The position numbers were made by a program, and so were the translations under genes. The notes below the pieces were generated by a model that was not told the origin of the DNA, ran no database searches, and saw only the letters and a list, made by a program, of their open reading frames with translations. Positions 22,102 through 38,040 of a stretch of 48,860 nucleotides of DNA are shown piece after piece. The stretch comes from a virus. The first letter of the stretch is position 1; each line of letters opens with the position of its first letter. The DNA lies in the IMG/VR virus record IMGVR_UViG_3300009553_000252, positions 1 to 48,860 of that record; one strand, written 5' to 3'.

Positions 22102-22371
22102 TTAGTACTGCCCGTACGTCTCTTGCATCAGTGCGTTGTGGTAGCTCTCTAGTGCGTCCTGCTCGGCACGCCCGCGCAACTTCGAGAAGCCCATGCCGCG
22201 AAGTGCGCTGGTAGGCTGGCCCACCAACTCAGGGTTGCCGTCGCCGGTATAGTGATGATATTGTCCATGCGCAGGCCCAATGCTCTGCGCGGCGATAATG
22301 CCGTCATTGGCGATTACTTGCTGAATACCATGTCCGCCGTCGATTGACCGTGTGTAAAAGGTGGTTTTCAT
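22102..22371 (-). CDS. Nested C-terminal product of the HTH fusion gene
   Basis: An 89-residue product can start at the in-frame ATG 22371, with AAGGAAGG 9 bases upstream. It begins MKTTFYTRSIDGGHG and ends with an aromatic tail (QETYGQY). No family is recognised. It probably was a separate gene before the upstream stop was lost. Confidence 0.45.
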   Translation of the reverse strand: MKTTFYTRSIDGGHGIQQVIANDGIIAAQSIGPAHGQYHHYTGDGNPELVGQPTSALRGMGFSKLRGRAEQDALESYHNALMQETYGQY

Positions 22372-22563
22372 CACTCTGTCCTTCCTTGCCACGTTCGCCG
22401 GCCGATGCGCCGGCCTGCGCTCCCGTCGATACCGCTCCACTTCGGCATCTTCGATCCACCAGTCGCGCCCGCGCATCTCCGCGTGGATGGTGCCGCCTTT
22501 GATGAGCCGCCACACCCAGGCGCGAGTAACGTTGAGCGAGGCGGCGGCTTCAGTCGTGGTCAT
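22102..22563 (-). CDS. HTH (excisionase-like) protein fused to a small phage protein
   Basis: 153 residues from the ATG that overlaps the upstream stop (ATGA). Residues 1-55 are an HTH_17/MerR-like winged helix (MTTTEAAASLNVTRAWVWRLIKGG, then WWIEDAEVERY). From Met 65 a separate acidic/aromatic segment follows. A strong SD (AAGGAAGG) before Met 65 indicates that the C-terminal 89 residues are also made alone. It is probably a DNA-binding regulator or recombination directionality factor. Confidence 0.65.
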   Translation of the reverse strand: MTTTEAAASLNVTRAWVWRLIKGGTIHAEMRGRDWWIEDAEVERYRRERRPAHRPANVARKDRVMKTTFYTRSIDGGHGIQQVIANDGIIAAQSIGPAHGQYHHYTGDGNPELVGQPTSALRGMGFSKLRGRAEQDALESYHNALMQETYGQY

Positions 22564-22868
22564 TTCTTCTCCATGTATCCCTTGCCGCCGCAATCAAAAC
22601 ACGTGTATCCAGGCCACTGACTTGCCCCGCCTGCGCCGCCGCACCGCTCACACAATTGAAATCCACGCCGGTCAATGTATGTCGCGAACGCGCTGCGCTC
22701 ACTGTCAATTCCTAACTCCGTCTTGAAAGCAGAACGAAATGCGCCGAGCGGAAAGGATCGCTGAAGCTTGGCAAAACAGTTGTGAACGAACACATATACA
22801 TTCTGCGTGCCGGCCCACTCAGCGTAGTTTCGGGCTTCTTGGGGAGTGACAACAAATTGACGTGCCAT
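22560..22868 (-). CDS. Small protein with a DnaJ-type zinc finger
   Basis: 102 residues from the ATG at 22868 (SD GAGGATC). A C-terminal pair CERCGGAGG...CFDCGGKG matches the CxxCxGxG repeats of DnaJ cysteine-rich domains, often reused in phage proteins for protein or nucleic acid binding. The N-terminal 65 residues (VVTPQEARNYAEWAGTQNVY) are unassigned. A strong sigma70 promoter lies upstream. Confidence 0.7.
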   Translation of the reverse strand: MARQFVVTPQEARNYAEWAGTQNVYVFVHNCFAKLQRSFPLGAFRSAFKTELGIDSERSAFATYIDRRGFQLCERCGGAGGASQWPGYTCFDCGGKGYMEKK

Positions 22869-22967: not shown

Positions 22968-24116
22968 TTATCCTAACGCGCGGCGCACATCTTCGACACT
23001 GGCATGATTGGCGTAGTGCCCTGCCATCGCCGTCGTCTTGTGCCCGGCGAGCGCCATCCGCACCGTCTCAGGGACGCCAGCAAGCGCCAGGAGCGTAAGC
23101 GCCGTATGGCGGAGGTCGTGGACGCGGAGCAGAGCGGGGAGGCCCGAGCGCGCCCGCAGGAGCACCCAGCGGTGGCGCACCGCGTCCACCTTGAGCGGTT
23201 GCCCTACAGCGTTCGTGAAGACGTACGCGGGAAACGGCATGCCAGGGTTGGCGGCGCAGCGCTTGATCTGCCACGCCTTGAGTGCGACAAGCATCTCGGC
23301 GATGTCGCGCTGAAGGGGCACCGTGCGCGGCTCTTTCGTCTTGGTCGTGCGCGTTGGGACAGTCGCCTTGCCGACGCGGGTGAGTTGCTGGCGGATCGTA
23401 ATCGTTGCGCGATCGAGGTCGTCGAGCTTGCAATCGATCCAGCGGACGCCGATACCCTCGCCGCGCCGGAAGCCAAGCCGACTGTACAGGTGCCACAGTG
23501 GGCAGAGCGGCTGATCGGGGATGTCTTCTGTTGAGGCGCATGCGAGCAAGTGGGCGCGCTGCGCTTCGGTAATCGCCATGCCGTGCCGCCGCTCCACGGT
23601 GGGCAACTCTAAATCCTCGAACGGGTTATCGCGAATATACTTTTGCTTCTGCGCATACTTGAATACTTGACGGCACACGTCTTTCATCTGCTGGATGTTT
23701 TGAAAACCCTGGTGGTAAAAATACATGAGCATTTCGTCGGCGTGCAGGTTCGTCACTTCGTCCATGCGGTAGCGGCCAATCTGCCCGCTGGCCAGTTCAA
23801 GCAGGTACTTGTAGCTTTCCAGTGTTTTTGGCGCGATCTTTTCTCTGCGCAGTTCCAGCCAGCGCGGGTAGAACATGCGCACCAGCTGCGAGCCGACCGC
23901 GACGTTGCGCGGCGTGTCGGCGTGGTCACGCTCTGCGGTGAGCCGGTCTAGGTGTTCCGCAGCTTCCGGTCGTGAAAGAAAACAATCGTATCGGTACTCG
24001 CCGTGTCCGATGGGGAACGCGGCTTCCCACGGGAGCGCCCGGCCTGCTTTTTCGCGGATCGTGCCGGTGTTCGGTTTTCGCCGCGTGGGCTTTGGGGCTG
24101 TTGCTTTGCGTGCCAT
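22968..24116 (-). CDS. int: Tyrosine recombinase (phage integrase)
   Basis: 382 residues. An N-terminal arm-type domain (PNTGTIREKAGR...PWEAAFPI) is followed by a SAM-like core-binding domain (about 75-165) and the catalytic domain with Arg217/218 (GFRRGEG), His333-Asp-Leu-Arg336-His337, His359 in AGHKT and the nucleophile Tyr368 in HYANHAS. It integrates the phage into, and with a partner excises it from, the host chromosome. It is the last gene of the minus early operon, overlapping the excisionase-like gene by 169 bases, with its own SD (GGAAGG). The attachment site was not identified; the 22.9 kb gap is a candidate. Confidence 0.95.
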   Translation of the reverse strand: MARKATAPKPTRRKPNTGTIREKAGRALPWEAAFPIGHGEYRYDCFLSRPEAAEHLDRLTAERDHADTPRNVAVGSQLVRMFYPRWLELRREKIAPKTLESYKYLLELASGQIGRYRMDEVTNLHADEMLMYFYHQGFQNIQQMKDVCRQVFKYAQKQKYIRDNPFEDLELPTVERRHGMAITEAQRAHLLACASTEDIPDQPLCPLWHLYSRLGFRRGEGIGVRWIDCKLDDLDRATITIRQQLTRVGKATVPTRTTKTKEPRTVPLQRDIAEMLVALKAWQIKRCAANPGMPFPAYVFTNAVGQPLKVDAVRHRWVLLRARSGLPALLRVHDLRHTALTLLALAGVPETVRMALAGHKTTAMAGHYANHASVEDVRRALG

Positions 24117-24713: not shown

Positions 24714-24919
24714 CACGCGATCCTCCTTCCGCCCAGCCCGCTCTTGCGGCCCTTGCGTGCCGCCTGCTTCTCCACCTCCGGCAGCGGGTCGGGCTGCGCG
24801 CGTCCGGCCTTCTGCGGCGGCGGCGTCTGGGCCTTGCGGTACGCGGCAGCGGTGTCTGCGCCGATGAAGGTGTAGTCAGGGTCGTCGTTGGCGGGATCGA
24901 AGGGTGGATACTCAAACAT
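24713..24919 (-). CDS. Small hypothetical protein
   Basis: 68 residues from the ATG at 24919 (SD GAGGAG). Acidic N-terminus (FDPANDDPDYTFIGADTAAAYRKAQ), basic C-terminus. Overlaps the methylase gene by 8 bases. No family is recognised. Confidence 0.55.
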   Translation of the reverse strand: MFEYPPFDPANDDPDYTFIGADTAAAYRKAQTPPPQKAGRAQPDPLPEVEKQAARKGRKSGLGGRRIA

Positions 24920-26417
24920 CGTCGTTCTCCTCAAACATCGTCCCGGTGAAGTTGCTCTCGCGTACCACGATTGGCCGGCTGAGTGTTTCGCGGGCTTCTT
25001 CTGTCGGATTCAAGCATCCCGGCGAAAACCAGATTATCTCTCTCTTGGCGTTCGCCCGCCCGCGCCCGTCGGCCTTCTGGTTGGCATAGCCCCCGCGCGC
25101 CTCCCACCGGACGCGCTCCCACGTCGATGGAAACAGCGCGTCGGTCGCCTCGGAGTAGTAGCCCGCGATGGCGATGCGCAGCCGCTTGTCATCGCCCTTT
25201 TCTACGGCCCACGCTGCTGCCTGGTGCCAGACCTCCGGCTGCGCGGCGGGCAGGTGCGATTCGGACATGACCACGGTCGGCTCGCCCATGCTCCGGCCGT
25301 CGGGCATGCTCCCTGGATGGTTGATGATCTCGAAGTACGCCATGTCGTGCTCGGCAGAAGGGTAGGGCGGGTCAAGAAACACCGCCGTCAAACCGTGGTT
25401 GACCGTGACGCTATCCTTGCACGCCCTTCTCCAGTCGCCGCACAGGAAGCGCACGCGGCGCAGGCGGTCGGACAGCCGCGCGAAGTAGGCGGCGAGGGCG
25501 GATGGTGCCATGCCGGGCATGTATCGCTCATTGTCCAATACCGGCATCTGCTTGGGCACGCCGTCGTGGTGCCGATACGCCTGGATGCCGCGATTCCAAG
25601 GCCCGCCCTCGCCCGGTGCGCCTACGACCGGCATCTGGCGCGGGACGGCGGCGCGGTAGGATTGGATGCCCTTTCCGATGCCGTTTGGCGATACGTCGGC
25701 TGTCTGTTTCCACACCCCATCCTCATCACTCCCAATCGTCCTTCTGTCCACCAGCCGCCCATCCACCGCAATCCACGGCCCGTCGGCAACGCACCATCCG
25801 TCGCCGATCCAGGATGCAATCCCCCACAACCACCAGGCACCGAGCATCGGATCGCAGTACAGCGGGTCAGCGAACAGGCGTGCGGTAAGCTCCTCGCGTG
25901 CGGCCTTGAGATGCAAGTGTCTGGCAGTGAGATCCGCTTCGCTCACCGGCCAGTCGCAGAGTTCGGCGGTCTCGTCAGGTGCAAATTGGATTGCGCGGTA
26001 GGCGTTGATCAGCAGGCCGTCCACATCGTTGACCGTCTCGGTCTGATAAGCGCCGCCGGGCCTGCCCAGCAGCATCGCGGACGAACCGCACATCGGCTCA
26101 ACGAAATTCTCAACCACGCCAAATCTAGCCCAGACCGGCGCGGCCATGTCGCTCTTGCCACCAGGCCAGGGGAAGGGTGCTTTGATCGTGTCGGTCATGG
26201 TGTAAGTTCCTGATCGCAATGTTTGTATCGGCGTTGTTTCGTGATCTAGTTTCGGCATCTGCTTCTTGACACTTACCCGCTGTTTGTCCAACCACGCCGC
26301 CACCGACGCCGCGCTGCGAAAGTACGCTGGCTGCCCGTTGCCGGTCAGCTCGTAGCCGTCGCCGTCTTCGCGGAGCGTCCAACCGAGAGCGGCGCAGCGG
26401 GTCGCGAGGTCGGTCAT
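24912..26417 (-). CDS. Dam-like DNA adenine N6-methyltransferase
   Basis: 501 residues. The D12-class methyltransferase core starts at about residue 80 with the SAM-binding PFPWPGGKSD motif, and the catalytic DPPY is at 349-352 (TAVFLDPPYPSAEHDM). Residues 1-55 form an extra small domain (LGWTLREDGDGYELTGN). A region at about 250-295 has an imperfect tandem repeat (GIQSYR..PRQMPVV, GIQAYR..PKQMPVL). It probably methylates adenines in phage DNA to evade restriction or mark replication. A second start at Met74 (base 26198) has SD AGGAA, so a short form lacking the first domain is likely. Confidence 0.85.
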   Translation of the reverse strand: MTDLATRCAALGWTLREDGDGYELTGNGQPAYFRSAASVAAWLDKQRVSVKKQMPKLDHETTPIQTLRSGTYTMTDTIKAPFPWPGGKSDMAAPVWARFGVVENFVEPMCGSSAMLLGRPGGAYQTETVNDVDGLLINAYRAIQFAPDETAELCDWPVSEADLTARHLHLKAAREELTARLFADPLYCDPMLGAWWLWGIASWIGDGWCVADGPWIAVDGRLVDRRTIGSDEDGVWKQTADVSPNGIGKGIQSYRAAVPRQMPVVGAPGEGGPWNRGIQAYRHHDGVPKQMPVLDNERYMPGMAPSALAAYFARLSDRLRRVRFLCGDWRRACKDSVTVNHGLTAVFLDPPYPSAEHDMAYFEIINHPGSMPDGRSMGEPTVVMSESHLPAAQPEVWHQAAAWAVEKGDDKRLRIAIAGYYSEATDALFPSTWERVRWEARGGYANQKADGRGRANAKREIIWFSPGCLNPTEEARETLSRPIVVRESNFTGTMFEENDDV

Positions 26418-27183: not shown

Positions 27184-27385
27184 TACTGATCCTTCGACAA
27201 CGCCGGCAGAGCCGGCCAATAGGTTTAATGTGCAGTTCCCACGCCTCGCTCGGCAGCAGTCCGCACAATGCCGTGCTGCCGTCCTCTCCCACATAGTGCC
27301 AGGTGCGCCGCCCGCGTCCGTGGGGGCGCACGTAGACGTAGCGGCTAGGTAATCTGCTTTCGTGCTTGATCGTAGTCAATGCCAT
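27110..27385 (-). CDS. Small Cys-rich protein
   Basis: 91 residues. It contains TALCG and a later LCRRCRR, a likely zinc site. It overlaps the primase-helicase end by 41 bases and the next gene by 74. The start (ATG 27385) lacks a good SD; an internal GTG just after the primase stop is possible. Real coding status is moderate. Confidence 0.45.
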   Translation of the reverse strand: MALTTIKHESRLPSRYVYVRPHGRGRRTWHYVGEDGSTALCGLLPSEAWELHIKPIGRLCRRCRRISNENDSTPNESSAPPTARTRRRDIP

Positions 27386-29579
27386 ACTCAGCGCATAGTT
27401 CGCGGGCGCGCTCTTGGTCGCTCTCCCTGTTTGAGCGTAGATAGAGCCGTAAAGTGGTCAGTGCGCCCTCTGGAACCTTTGACCAAATGGGGTGATCTGG
27501 GCTTGTAACCTGTTTTTGTTGTAACCTTTGTAACCCTACCTCGTTTGACGCTTCATGATGCGCTAAATCGATGTAACCCAAAGTGCCATTTTCGGTTACA
27601 TTTGTAACCGTATAGGACTGAACGGTTACATCGGTTACATCAGTTACAGGAGTTACATCGGTTACAATGGTTACAAAATATCCGCCCATATTTCCGGCCT
27701 GCTGCACGAGGTTTTTATCGAACATCCGGCGCACCGTAACCTTGATGGTGTTGACTGGTAGGCCCATCATCTCGGCAATCGTGGACGGGCCAAGCGGCGT
27801 CGCCTTCGTCGCGTGCTGTTTCAGGAACCGATAGATGGATAGTTCGGTTTGACCCATCGCCGGTTCTGGTGCCACGTCCGCAACAATCCAGCGCCGACCG
27901 GTCAACGTGCGCTCCTGTGCCAATGCCCAGTCGGTCTTATCGGCCATGCGCGGGTATGACGCGATCCTTACACGCTGCTCTTTGTCCTCATACAGCGTCA
28001 TACGCGAGGCTGGCACCGCCCACATACCCGTGCTGCCGTTGTACATGAGCTTCGGGTCGGCCTCGCGCTTCGAGGCGTGCCAGCTCCCGAGTATTGAGAC
28101 GTGATGCATGCTCGCGAGCCGATGGTAGGGCTTGAGTTCGGCATAGTCACCACGGTATACATTCTGTTTGAACTTCTCAGGTGGAAGGAACGCGGTCATC
28201 ACGTCGATAATGATCACTTCAACACCAAGCACGCGGATGTACCACTCCAGATCAGTAATAGCCTCTTCGGGTGTCGTGGGAAAGTCGTCTTCCATTGTCT
28301 TGATGAGCAGTTGACCACGCGCGATAGCCGCGCCACACCGCGAAATGTCCACCAAGGGGATGATCTCTTCGCGGGTATACTCAACACCAAGAAACAAAAC
28401 CTTGACCTGTGGGCACTGGACGGCGTTCATCCACTTGCGCCCGGTCGCTAGTGCAATCGCGAGCTGGATAAGCAGCGGCGTCTTGCCGACGTTCGGCTGA
28501 CCAATCAGGACGCCAAGCCCTTCGCGCAGGAAGCCGGGCGCATACCATATGACCGTCCTGCGCTCCATCGTCAAGAGGTCGTTGACATCCATTGGCATCG
28601 TCGGCACGGCGGCGTAGTGCTGCACATCGATGATCTCGCCAGTCGTGGCGCTTACGTGCGAGCGCGTCTCTACTTTTTCGCCGCGCAGGGCAGCGGCAGC
28701 GGCTTTGTAGTCGCCGCCGTGAAGCATCTCGGTATAGATAGCGAAGGGCGAGTATGCCCGGTTCGGCTCGAAGGGCGAGGCGTTCGAGGAGAATACATAG
28801 AGCACGCCCGGCGCGACAAAACCGAACGTGGCGCTGATTCCTTGATCTTTTCCCGGCCGGCACAAGTACAGCGCGTTGTCGCGCTCGCGTACAACCGCCC
28901 ACCCTGCCTGCTCCAAAAGCCGCAGCGCCGCGTCAGCGTGATCGCGGTTATAGATATCCCCCGGTCTGTCGCCGGTTGAGCGCTGCACGATCTCAAGCGT
29001 GCGCCGGTCTGTTCGAGTGAGTGCTCGCGCGCAATCAAGAACGATCTGACGCTCGGCCGGCGTAATCGTTGGCAGGCTTGCCCAGTCGCCGCGCATCAGT
29101 TCGTAACCGGGACTAGGCGCGACCTGGAACTGCCCGCCCTTGCCGCGCGTCTCGATCAGGGTGACATGGGTGAGTTTCGGTTTTTCAGCTAACTCAGCTG
29201 CGGTCGGTGGGCGTTTGGCGAGTGTTTGGTTTCCCTCGATCACATCGCAATGCCATGCCAGATGATAGCCGCCGGACGGCGTGCGCTCCAGAAGGAGACG
29301 CCTCGCCAGTCCCGGCGCAAGCTGCTGGCACAGGTCGCCCCAGTCGTGGAGAAGCGTGTTGGCATCCGGCGTGCCTTTGTTATCGAAGTCTAAGCCCTCG
29401 ACATCACGCACGCCGATGGCGCGTCCGTCCGTCGCATACCACGCGCGGATCTGCTTCTCTGTCGGTGTGATGGTGTGCCAGTTCGCGAGGCCAGCAGGGA
29501 ACTTCTGGACCGGATCGTTCGGTAGCACGATCAGGCCAGCATTATGGTAGGCGAGTGCGGTATCAAGAAGCGATGTCAT
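27345..29579 (-). CDS. Primase-polymerase / RepA-like helicase fusion
   Basis: 744 residues. The N-terminal 200 residues match the bifunctional primase/polymerase (prim-pol, AEP) domain: GLDFDNKG at 62-69 carries the metal-binding Asp pair and RTPSGGYHLAW at 99-109 the SGG-H motif. The middle is a RecA-fold ATPase of the RepA/DnaB-like type: Walker A GQPNVGKT at 360-367, Walker B VIIIDV near 455-460. A winged-helix follows (about 595-640). The C-terminal 100 residues hold V-T-x tripeptide repeats caused by DNA iterons. It starts and drives replication of the phage. The C-terminal end overlaps the next gene. Confidence 0.85.
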   Translation of the reverse strand: MTSLLDTALAYHNAGLIVLPNDPVQKFPAGLANWHTITPTEKQIRAWYATDGRAIGVRDVEGLDFDNKGTPDANTLLHDWGDLCQQLAPGLARRLLLERTPSGGYHLAWHCDVIEGNQTLAKRPPTAAELAEKPKLTHVTLIETRGKGGQFQVAPSPGYELMRGDWASLPTITPAERQIVLDCARALTRTDRRTLEIVQRSTGDRPGDIYNRDHADAALRLLEQAGWAVVRERDNALYLCRPGKDQGISATFGFVAPGVLYVFSSNASPFEPNRAYSPFAIYTEMLHGGDYKAAAAALRGEKVETRSHVSATTGEIIDVQHYAAVPTMPMDVNDLLTMERRTVIWYAPGFLREGLGVLIGQPNVGKTPLLIQLAIALATGRKWMNAVQCPQVKVLFLGVEYTREEIIPLVDISRCGAAIARGQLLIKTMEDDFPTTPEEAITDLEWYIRVLGVEVIIIDVMTAFLPPEKFKQNVYRGDYAELKPYHRLASMHHVSILGSWHASKREADPKLMYNGSTGMWAVPASRMTLYEDKEQRVRIASYPRMADKTDWALAQERTLTGRRWIVADVAPEPAMGQTELSIYRFLKQHATKATPLGPSTIAEMMGLPVNTIKVTVRRMFDKNLVQQAGNMGGYFVTIVTDVTPVTDVTDVTVQSYTVTNVTENGTLGYIDLAHHEASNEVGLQRLQQKQVTSPDHPIWSKVPEGALTTLRLYLRSNRESDQERARELCAEYGIDYDQARKQIT
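27504..27675. repeat. Iteron cluster, probable origin of replication
   Basis: Twelve copies of GGTTACA or its complement TGTAACC (two with A for the first G) lie within 172 bases: 27504, 27520, 27529, 27572 and 27603 as TGTAACC; 27594, 27624, 27633, 27642, 27651, 27660 and 27669 as (G/A)GTTACA. The last six are spaced exactly 9 bases. The pair 27594/27603 forms a 16-base palindrome. The heptamer is read in all three frames of the overlying gene and in both orientations, so selection is on DNA, not protein. Confidence 0.75.
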
Positions 29580-37565: not shown

Positions 37566-38040
37566 CTACAGCGAGCCGCTTATTCAAAAGTGGTTTGAGG
37601 TGCGGGAGTGGAAGCCGCTCGCAAAGTCAACCATCAGCTATCATCGCTCGAATTTCGCTATGGAGATTGAGGCCGCGCGTGCCGAGCGGCGAAGCGCGGC
37701 GCTCACGACTGGGCTGGCACTGAAGGAAGAGCGGGTCAGGCGTCTTGTGGATCATGCTGATGAGCTTGAAGCTATCAAGTGGACACCTGACGAACACGGG
37801 CGGCTGTGGAATGAAAAGGCGTGGCGCGAAACACTTGACGACATCGCGAAAGAGATGGGGCACCGTCGCCAAGGTATCGACGTGAGCGATGTTACGGATT
37901 ACTCCGATGTATCACCCGACGAACGAATCACAAAACTCATGGGCGAACTCGACCGGCTCACGACCTTTGCAGCCTGGGAACGCCCTGCCGCCCGACTTGC
38001 CGATGCGCAACCTAGCGTGGCAGACGACACCACGTCATGA
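37492..38040 (+). CDS. Small terminase subunit-like protein
   Basis: 182 residues from the ATG at 37492, no strong SD. N-terminal HTH-like helices (LNEEQRAALLTWLAADYSEPLIQKWF) and a long charged helical centre (EIEAARAERRSAALTTGLALKEERVRRL) fit the DNA-recognising small terminase, which marks packaging sites. Immediate position before the large terminase supports it. It overlaps that gene by about 38 bases. Confidence 0.65.
   Translation: MAENQRKPKLNEEQRAALLTWLAADYSEPLIQKWFEVREWKPLAKSTISYHRSNFAMEIEAARAERRSAALTTGLALKEERVRRLVDHADELEAIKWTPDEHGRLWNEKAWRETLDDIAKEMGHRRQGIDVSDVTDYSDVSPDERITKLMGELDRLTTFAAWERPAARLADAQPSVADDTTS

Follow-up and report, generated by a model that had tools for sequence, protein, structure and literature searches.

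A candidate iteron-type replication origin inside the coding sequence of a phage primase-helicase

Can the 3' end of a viral primase-helicase gene also serve, within its codons, as the origin from which the virus replicates? The question is raised by a cluster of short repeats at 27504-27675 of IMG/VR virus record IMGVR_UViG_3300009553_000252, which was analysed over positions 1-48,860 (a 48.9-kb contig; "the window" below is this entire contig). A phage integrase, a large terminase and a tape-measure protein are encoded on the contig (Pfam, PHROG), and the virus appears to be a temperate phage. An earlier note, made from the sequence alone, had proposed an iteron-type origin buried in the gene.

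The repeat array, its gene and the predicted winged helix

The 744-aa product was matched to Prim-Pol (1e-8) and AAA_25 (2.8e-14) in Pfam and to DNA polymerase/primase (6.6e-33) in PHROG; a PDB sequence search with the entire protein gave no match. A model of the full C-terminus was too poor for use (pLDDT 50), so only the winged helix was taken to a fold search. Foldseek returned ArsR/MarR winged helix-turn-helix (wHTH) matches (TMq 0.7-0.8, E about 1e-3), and the best viral match was TubR, an iteron-binding partition protein, as a generic wHTH match. The presumed initiator is thus predicted to carry a C-terminal DNA-binding domain of winged-helix type, which by analogy most likely reads the iterons. 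In the model the domain ends where the repeats start, its last beta-strand (YFVT) being encoded by the first iteron. Coordinates are collected in Table 1.

Table 1. Features of the primase-helicase gene and of the repeat array (window coordinates)
Feature	Position	Strand	Basis or remark
Primase-helicase, presumed initiator, origin-containing	27345..29579	-	ORF and translation; 744 codons/aa
Prim-Pol (AEP primase/polymerase) domain, aa 8-159	29103..29558	-	Pfam PF09250
AAA_25 (RecA-like ATPase/helicase) domain, aa 328-504	28068..28598	-	Pfam PF13481
Winged-helix domain (predicted), aa ~577-638	27666..27851	-	AlphaFold model pLDDT 79, H-H-H-E-E order
Gene-proximal iteron array, six copies (4 GGTTACA, 2 AGTTACA), 9-bp steps	27624..27675	+	VT-x on gene strand
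Inverted iteron pair GGTTACA-TT-TGTAACC, 9-bp register	27594..27609	.	16-bp core kept in L216
Single iteron TGTAACC	27572..27578	-	GY on gene strand
Gene-distal iteron array, copies 27504, 27520, 27529; orientation opposite to proximal array	27504..27535	-	
AT-rich segment	27511..27682	.	GC 0.40 vs ~0.60 in remaining gene
C-terminal tail beyond iterons, ~50 aa	27345..27503	-	predicted helical, pLDDT 70-80

The hexamer GTTACA occurs 12 times in the array. The earlier count of 12 GGTTACA/TGTAACC in 172 bases was right as to position, density and coding context, but exact copies number 10, the other two being AGTTACA (27642, 27651). Across the window 2.8 +/- 1.7 heptamers were expected and 12 were reached in no shuffle; the only copies elsewhere are the two at 2597 and 4384. 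With 10 copies in 400 bp, this is the densest heptamer of the window (runner-up, 6). Six copies stand at exact 9-bp steps as had been reported (starts 27624, 27633, 27642, 27651, 27660 and 27669), and the same 9-bp register is seen in two more pairs, one at 27520/27529 and one, inverted, at 27594/27603. The latter had been called a perfect palindrome; its two 7-bp arms match perfectly but are separated by 2 bp, which makes it a perfect inverted repeat and not a strict palindrome.

All 12 sites are coding (codons ~636-692 of 744) and precede the stop codon at 27345. The heptamer had been said to be read in all three frames and both orientations. Both orientations are indeed present; GGTTACA occupies all three frames of the coding strand (VT, GY, LQ), and TGTAACY is read in one (VT). 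The sites form two oppositely oriented sets (gene-oriented pattern ------+-++++, ordering score 0.97). The AT-rich segment ranks third lowest in GC among 172-bp stretches of the contig. Since the largest gap between iterons is just 43 bp at ~49% GC (overall segment 40% vs 60%), the window has no clear separate AT-rich melting spacer, unlike most relatives.

Conservation of the DNA word over the peptide

Resampling of synonymous codons at the gene's own usage, without any change to the protein, gave a mean of 0.71 GTTACA and a maximum of 5 in 20,000 trials, against 12 observed. When only the segment's own synonymous codons were shuffled, 12 was reached in 0 of 20,000. Searches of viral and genome contigs with the 744-aa protein, or with its ATPase part, as single queries gave no relatives. 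A shorter Walker-A query recovered one close relative, the only one found, on another viral contig (L216, protein 54% identical), and 30 more distant Prim-Pol relatives were obtained by alignment search. The matching segment of L216 holds 12 copies, all coding, against a mean of 0.80 and a maximum of 5 on synonymous resampling; the search for the cluster in relatives that the earlier note had proposed was thus positive here.

Nucleotide identity between the window and L216 is 73/84 in heptamer bases and 54/94 between heptamers (p=1e-5). CAGGTTACAAG is common to both, yet the window translates it as Q-V-T-S and L216 as P-G-Y-K; a GGTTACA that the window reads as GY aligns with a TGTAACC read CNP in L216, the orientation being flipped; L216 also reads the heptamer as CN. 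The tail past the array cannot be aligned with that of L216 and is unrelated. On these sequence comparisons, selection acts on the DNA, heptamers being kept while frame, peptide and sometimes orientation change. The earlier suggestion that the V-T-x peptide repeat is a by-product agrees with both the codon simulation and L216. The pattern named in advance as its refutation, relatives that lack heptamers and keep the peptide, is the reverse of that seen in L216, where heptamers are kept and the peptide is lost.

Arrays at other initiator genes

Viral contigs (IMG/VR) were scanned for three GGTTACA in 9-bp register, which were found in 95 stretches, compared with 8 when the word was reversed (nearly all of these single-orientation coding repeats); the seed of the scan was itself the 9-bp register, so that spacing statistics are biased, and GGTTACA was preselected and hence not ranked by frequency against other words. 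Some clusters were coding repeats in a single orientation and a single frame; the others were mixed-orientation arrays. A recognised primase-helicase was present at 45 of 91 unique mixed-orientation loci and at 5 of 95 single-orientation loci (p=3e-12), and at the mixed loci it nearly always ended within ~100 bp of the array. Among large ORFs picked for ending at arrays and then scanned for domains, 19/20 were replication primases or helicases, of the families VapE, D5_N/DUF5906 with Prim-Pol, DUF927 with a Cch helix-turn-helix domain, NrS-1 polymerase-like, TOTE-type AEP and DUF3854/DUF5906; one additional array sits behind a DnaG-type primase. Polarity was TGTAACC-proximal/GGTTACA-distal in 27 of 43 loci and reversed in 6, with a spacer that was usually AT-rich. 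Coding sites were absent from 29 of 42 other initiator loci and numbered one or two in the remaining 13; at none were all sites coding. Among GGTTACA arrays, the fully coding end of the range is represented by the window and L216.

About half of the mixed-orientation clusters adjoin no recognised primase-helicase, and the word alone is therefore no proof of an origin. Six such arrays (L030:3967-4124, L045:1656-1830, L057:4915-5207, L058:5221-5578, L093:991-1254 and L126:3900-4132) have small terminase, ArdC-like, Holliday-junction resolvase and endolysin genes among their neighbours; arrays of this kind may be origins situated apart from the gene of the initiator, or may have another role. Less than 1 kb from another GGTTACA array, a phage protein with fused Mu F-like and ADP-ribosyltransferase-like domains was observed (L069:3641-5626, plus strand). 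The heptamer was also sought in the literature, with no relevant result. It is tentatively conceivable, though rather doubtful, that several evolutionarily separate primase-helicase families (VapE, D5/DUF5906, DUF927-Cch, NrS-1-like, TOTE-type AEP and AAA_25) share GGTTACA in 9-bp register as a portable origin "address", with the C-terminal DNA-reading domain and the array swapped as one cassette that is wholly coding in the AAA_25 family.

The GTTACA cluster was absent from the 30 more distant Prim-Pol relatives (mostly planctomycete genomes). Most of those examined carried inverted arrays of short repeats that started at the stop codon, with the words GGTGAAA, AAACGAA, ATCCTTCAC, GCAGGGA and others. 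Among ten named phages related to GGTTACA-linked initiators, nine had repeat arrays at that position: YeP4 (AGGTTGTC), APSE-1 (GGTTGTTA), Jess A (GGTTACA itself), ACF1, AC844P1, Jekyll, THSA-485A, Methanoculleus virus L4768 and a Listeria phage. Kurnik was the sole one without. By sequence, then, the position of the array is conserved and its word is variable.

In eleven planctomycete Prim-Pol elements (L228, L232, L234, L238-L242, L246, L247 and L249), inverted arrays of GGTGAAA type were observed 0-250 bp after the stop codon, surrounding an AT-rich core with a conserved AACAACTCTCTCTC pyrimidine tract; these look like uncharacterised replication origins. In an AAA_25/winged-helix relative from Nonomuraea gerenzanensis (L212:4850-5037), a VP-x repeat encoded by GTCCC words at 9-bp steps follows the winged helix; this may be another iteron array within a gene, GC-rich in this case.

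Origin function, alternatives and known systems

The segment is very probably the replication origin of the phage, within the 3' part of the coding sequence for its own Prim-Pol/AAA_25 initiator. We infer origin function and binding at the array. The proposal of an iteron-type origin inside the primase-helicase gene is favoured over a peptide repeat by three independent lines: DNA-level selection, the largely non-coding arrays behind many primase-helicases, and the paired arrays with other words in distant relatives and named phages. Cumulative GC skew, which had been put forward as a check, gave no turn at 27.5 kb; its minimum lies near 32-33 kb and tracks gene direction. In the proposed mechanism the two GGTTACA arrays, opposite in orientation, would be recognised by the C-terminal winged helix, which would load the ATPase by seeding helicase rings on the AT-rich DNA; the AAA_25 ATPase would unwind this DNA and the Prim-Pol domain would prime. 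The disordered VT/GY/LQ linker would be largely a by-product, because the reading frame traverses the origin (compare the iteron-encoded segment of lambda O). The phage variant would then be the "behind the primase-helicase" iteron origin moved wholly into coding sequence.

A repeat selected as peptide, with a Val-Thr linker joining the winged helix to the tail and the DNA repeat as its by-product, would suit the regular VT-x encoded by the six-heptamer run in a single frame, and many single-orientation GTTACA clusters on other contigs are one-frame coding repeats. The window uses both orientations and all frames, however, and its count lies beyond the reach of synonymous codons, even when the segment's own codons are permuted; L216 retains the DNA words and not the peptide, most other initiator loci have no coding heptamer, and the linker is predicted to be disordered. 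This explanation was rejected on the codon simulation and the frame changes and is largely refuted; we consider it barely credible. It is quite unlikely that the array is an operator through which the 744-aa protein or another regulator controls the leftward operon (27294 down) or through which the gene is autoregulated. Iteron-binding initiators often autoregulate, and the next leftward ORF begins at 27294, ~210 bp past the array. Against this, the array is at the 3' end of the gene and not at its promoter, most families keep it at the primase-helicase 3' end whichever gene comes next, and operators are usually smaller than two inverted arrays of 6-12 sites flanking AT-rich DNA. A packaging (pac) or centromere-like partition site in place of an origin is very improbable. 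Some GGTTACA clusters elsewhere do adjoin small terminase genes (L030, L045), and the fold match to TubR, albeit generic, points the same way; the large terminase of the window is at 37889, 10 kb off, the array is internal to the primase-helicase gene, and on other contigs primase-helicases are the neighbours most often identified.

As a candidate replication origin, the array was compared with characterised systems. In SaPI Rep and SCCmec Cch2, an initiator helicase binds iterons directly 3' of its gene by its C-terminal domain (PMC7581432), and in PICIs two iteron sets surround an AT-rich region in a tested replicon (PMC6092414). Array layout is alike in SaPI Rep, Cch2 and PICI pri-rep-ori, whereas those systems have other iterons (Cch2, AAGTG), a non-coding origin and other helicases, against 12 coding sites and an AAA_25-type ATPase in the window. 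Short iterons clustered at the initiator 3' end, the feature of SaPI/PICI/SCC/P4-type systems, were found here and in the 42 other loci. The likeness to lambda drawn in the earlier note was upheld, in that an iteron origin lies within gene O, where extra iterons add residues to the protein (PMC7466680), and the candidate origin of the window likewise lies inside the coding sequence of its presumed initiator. An array placed fully in the gene was found in the window and L216 and in 0/42 other initiator loci. Lambda O is not homologous, is without primase or helicase and has longer iterons in mid-gene, whereas the window has 7-mer iterons that keep a 9-bp register and follow a C-terminal winged helix; Pfam and PHROG matches were to Prim-Pol, AAA_25 and DNA primase families only, with none to lambda O or the helicase-loader type.

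P4 alpha combines primase, helicase and a C-terminal winged-helix origin-binding domain (PMC4234260 and general knowledge). Its primase is Toprim-type, its ori sites are non-coding and its iteron word differs from GGTTACA. P4 alpha acts on short GG-starting ori/crr iterons, the P4 iteron being GGTGTACA. In pRN1, Orf904 has Prim-Pol, helicase and C-terminal winged helix with an origin just 3' of the gene (PMC4234260); that origin is a ~100-bp stem-loop without iterons outside the gene, and the helicase is SF3.

A concrete candidate origin and origin word are thereby provided for a phage without an annotated origin, together with a putative origin-finding rule for many phages and mobile elements, namely two inverted short-repeat arrays that straddle or follow the primase-helicase stop codon. 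In the embedded case a single DNA stretch would be both coding sequence and a full 12-site origin, and a word kept while its frame changes is clean material for the study of dual constraint. The identical heptamer behind unrelated initiators makes the exchange of initiator specificity a checkable question.

Two further observations were made on the minus strand of the window. The stretches 22102-22593 and 22968-24116 hold a small DNA-binding protein, excisionase- or small terminase-like, beside the phage integrase, and 24912-26417, downstream of the primase-helicase, encodes a 501-aa protein with a weak match to D12-class adenine methyltransferase.
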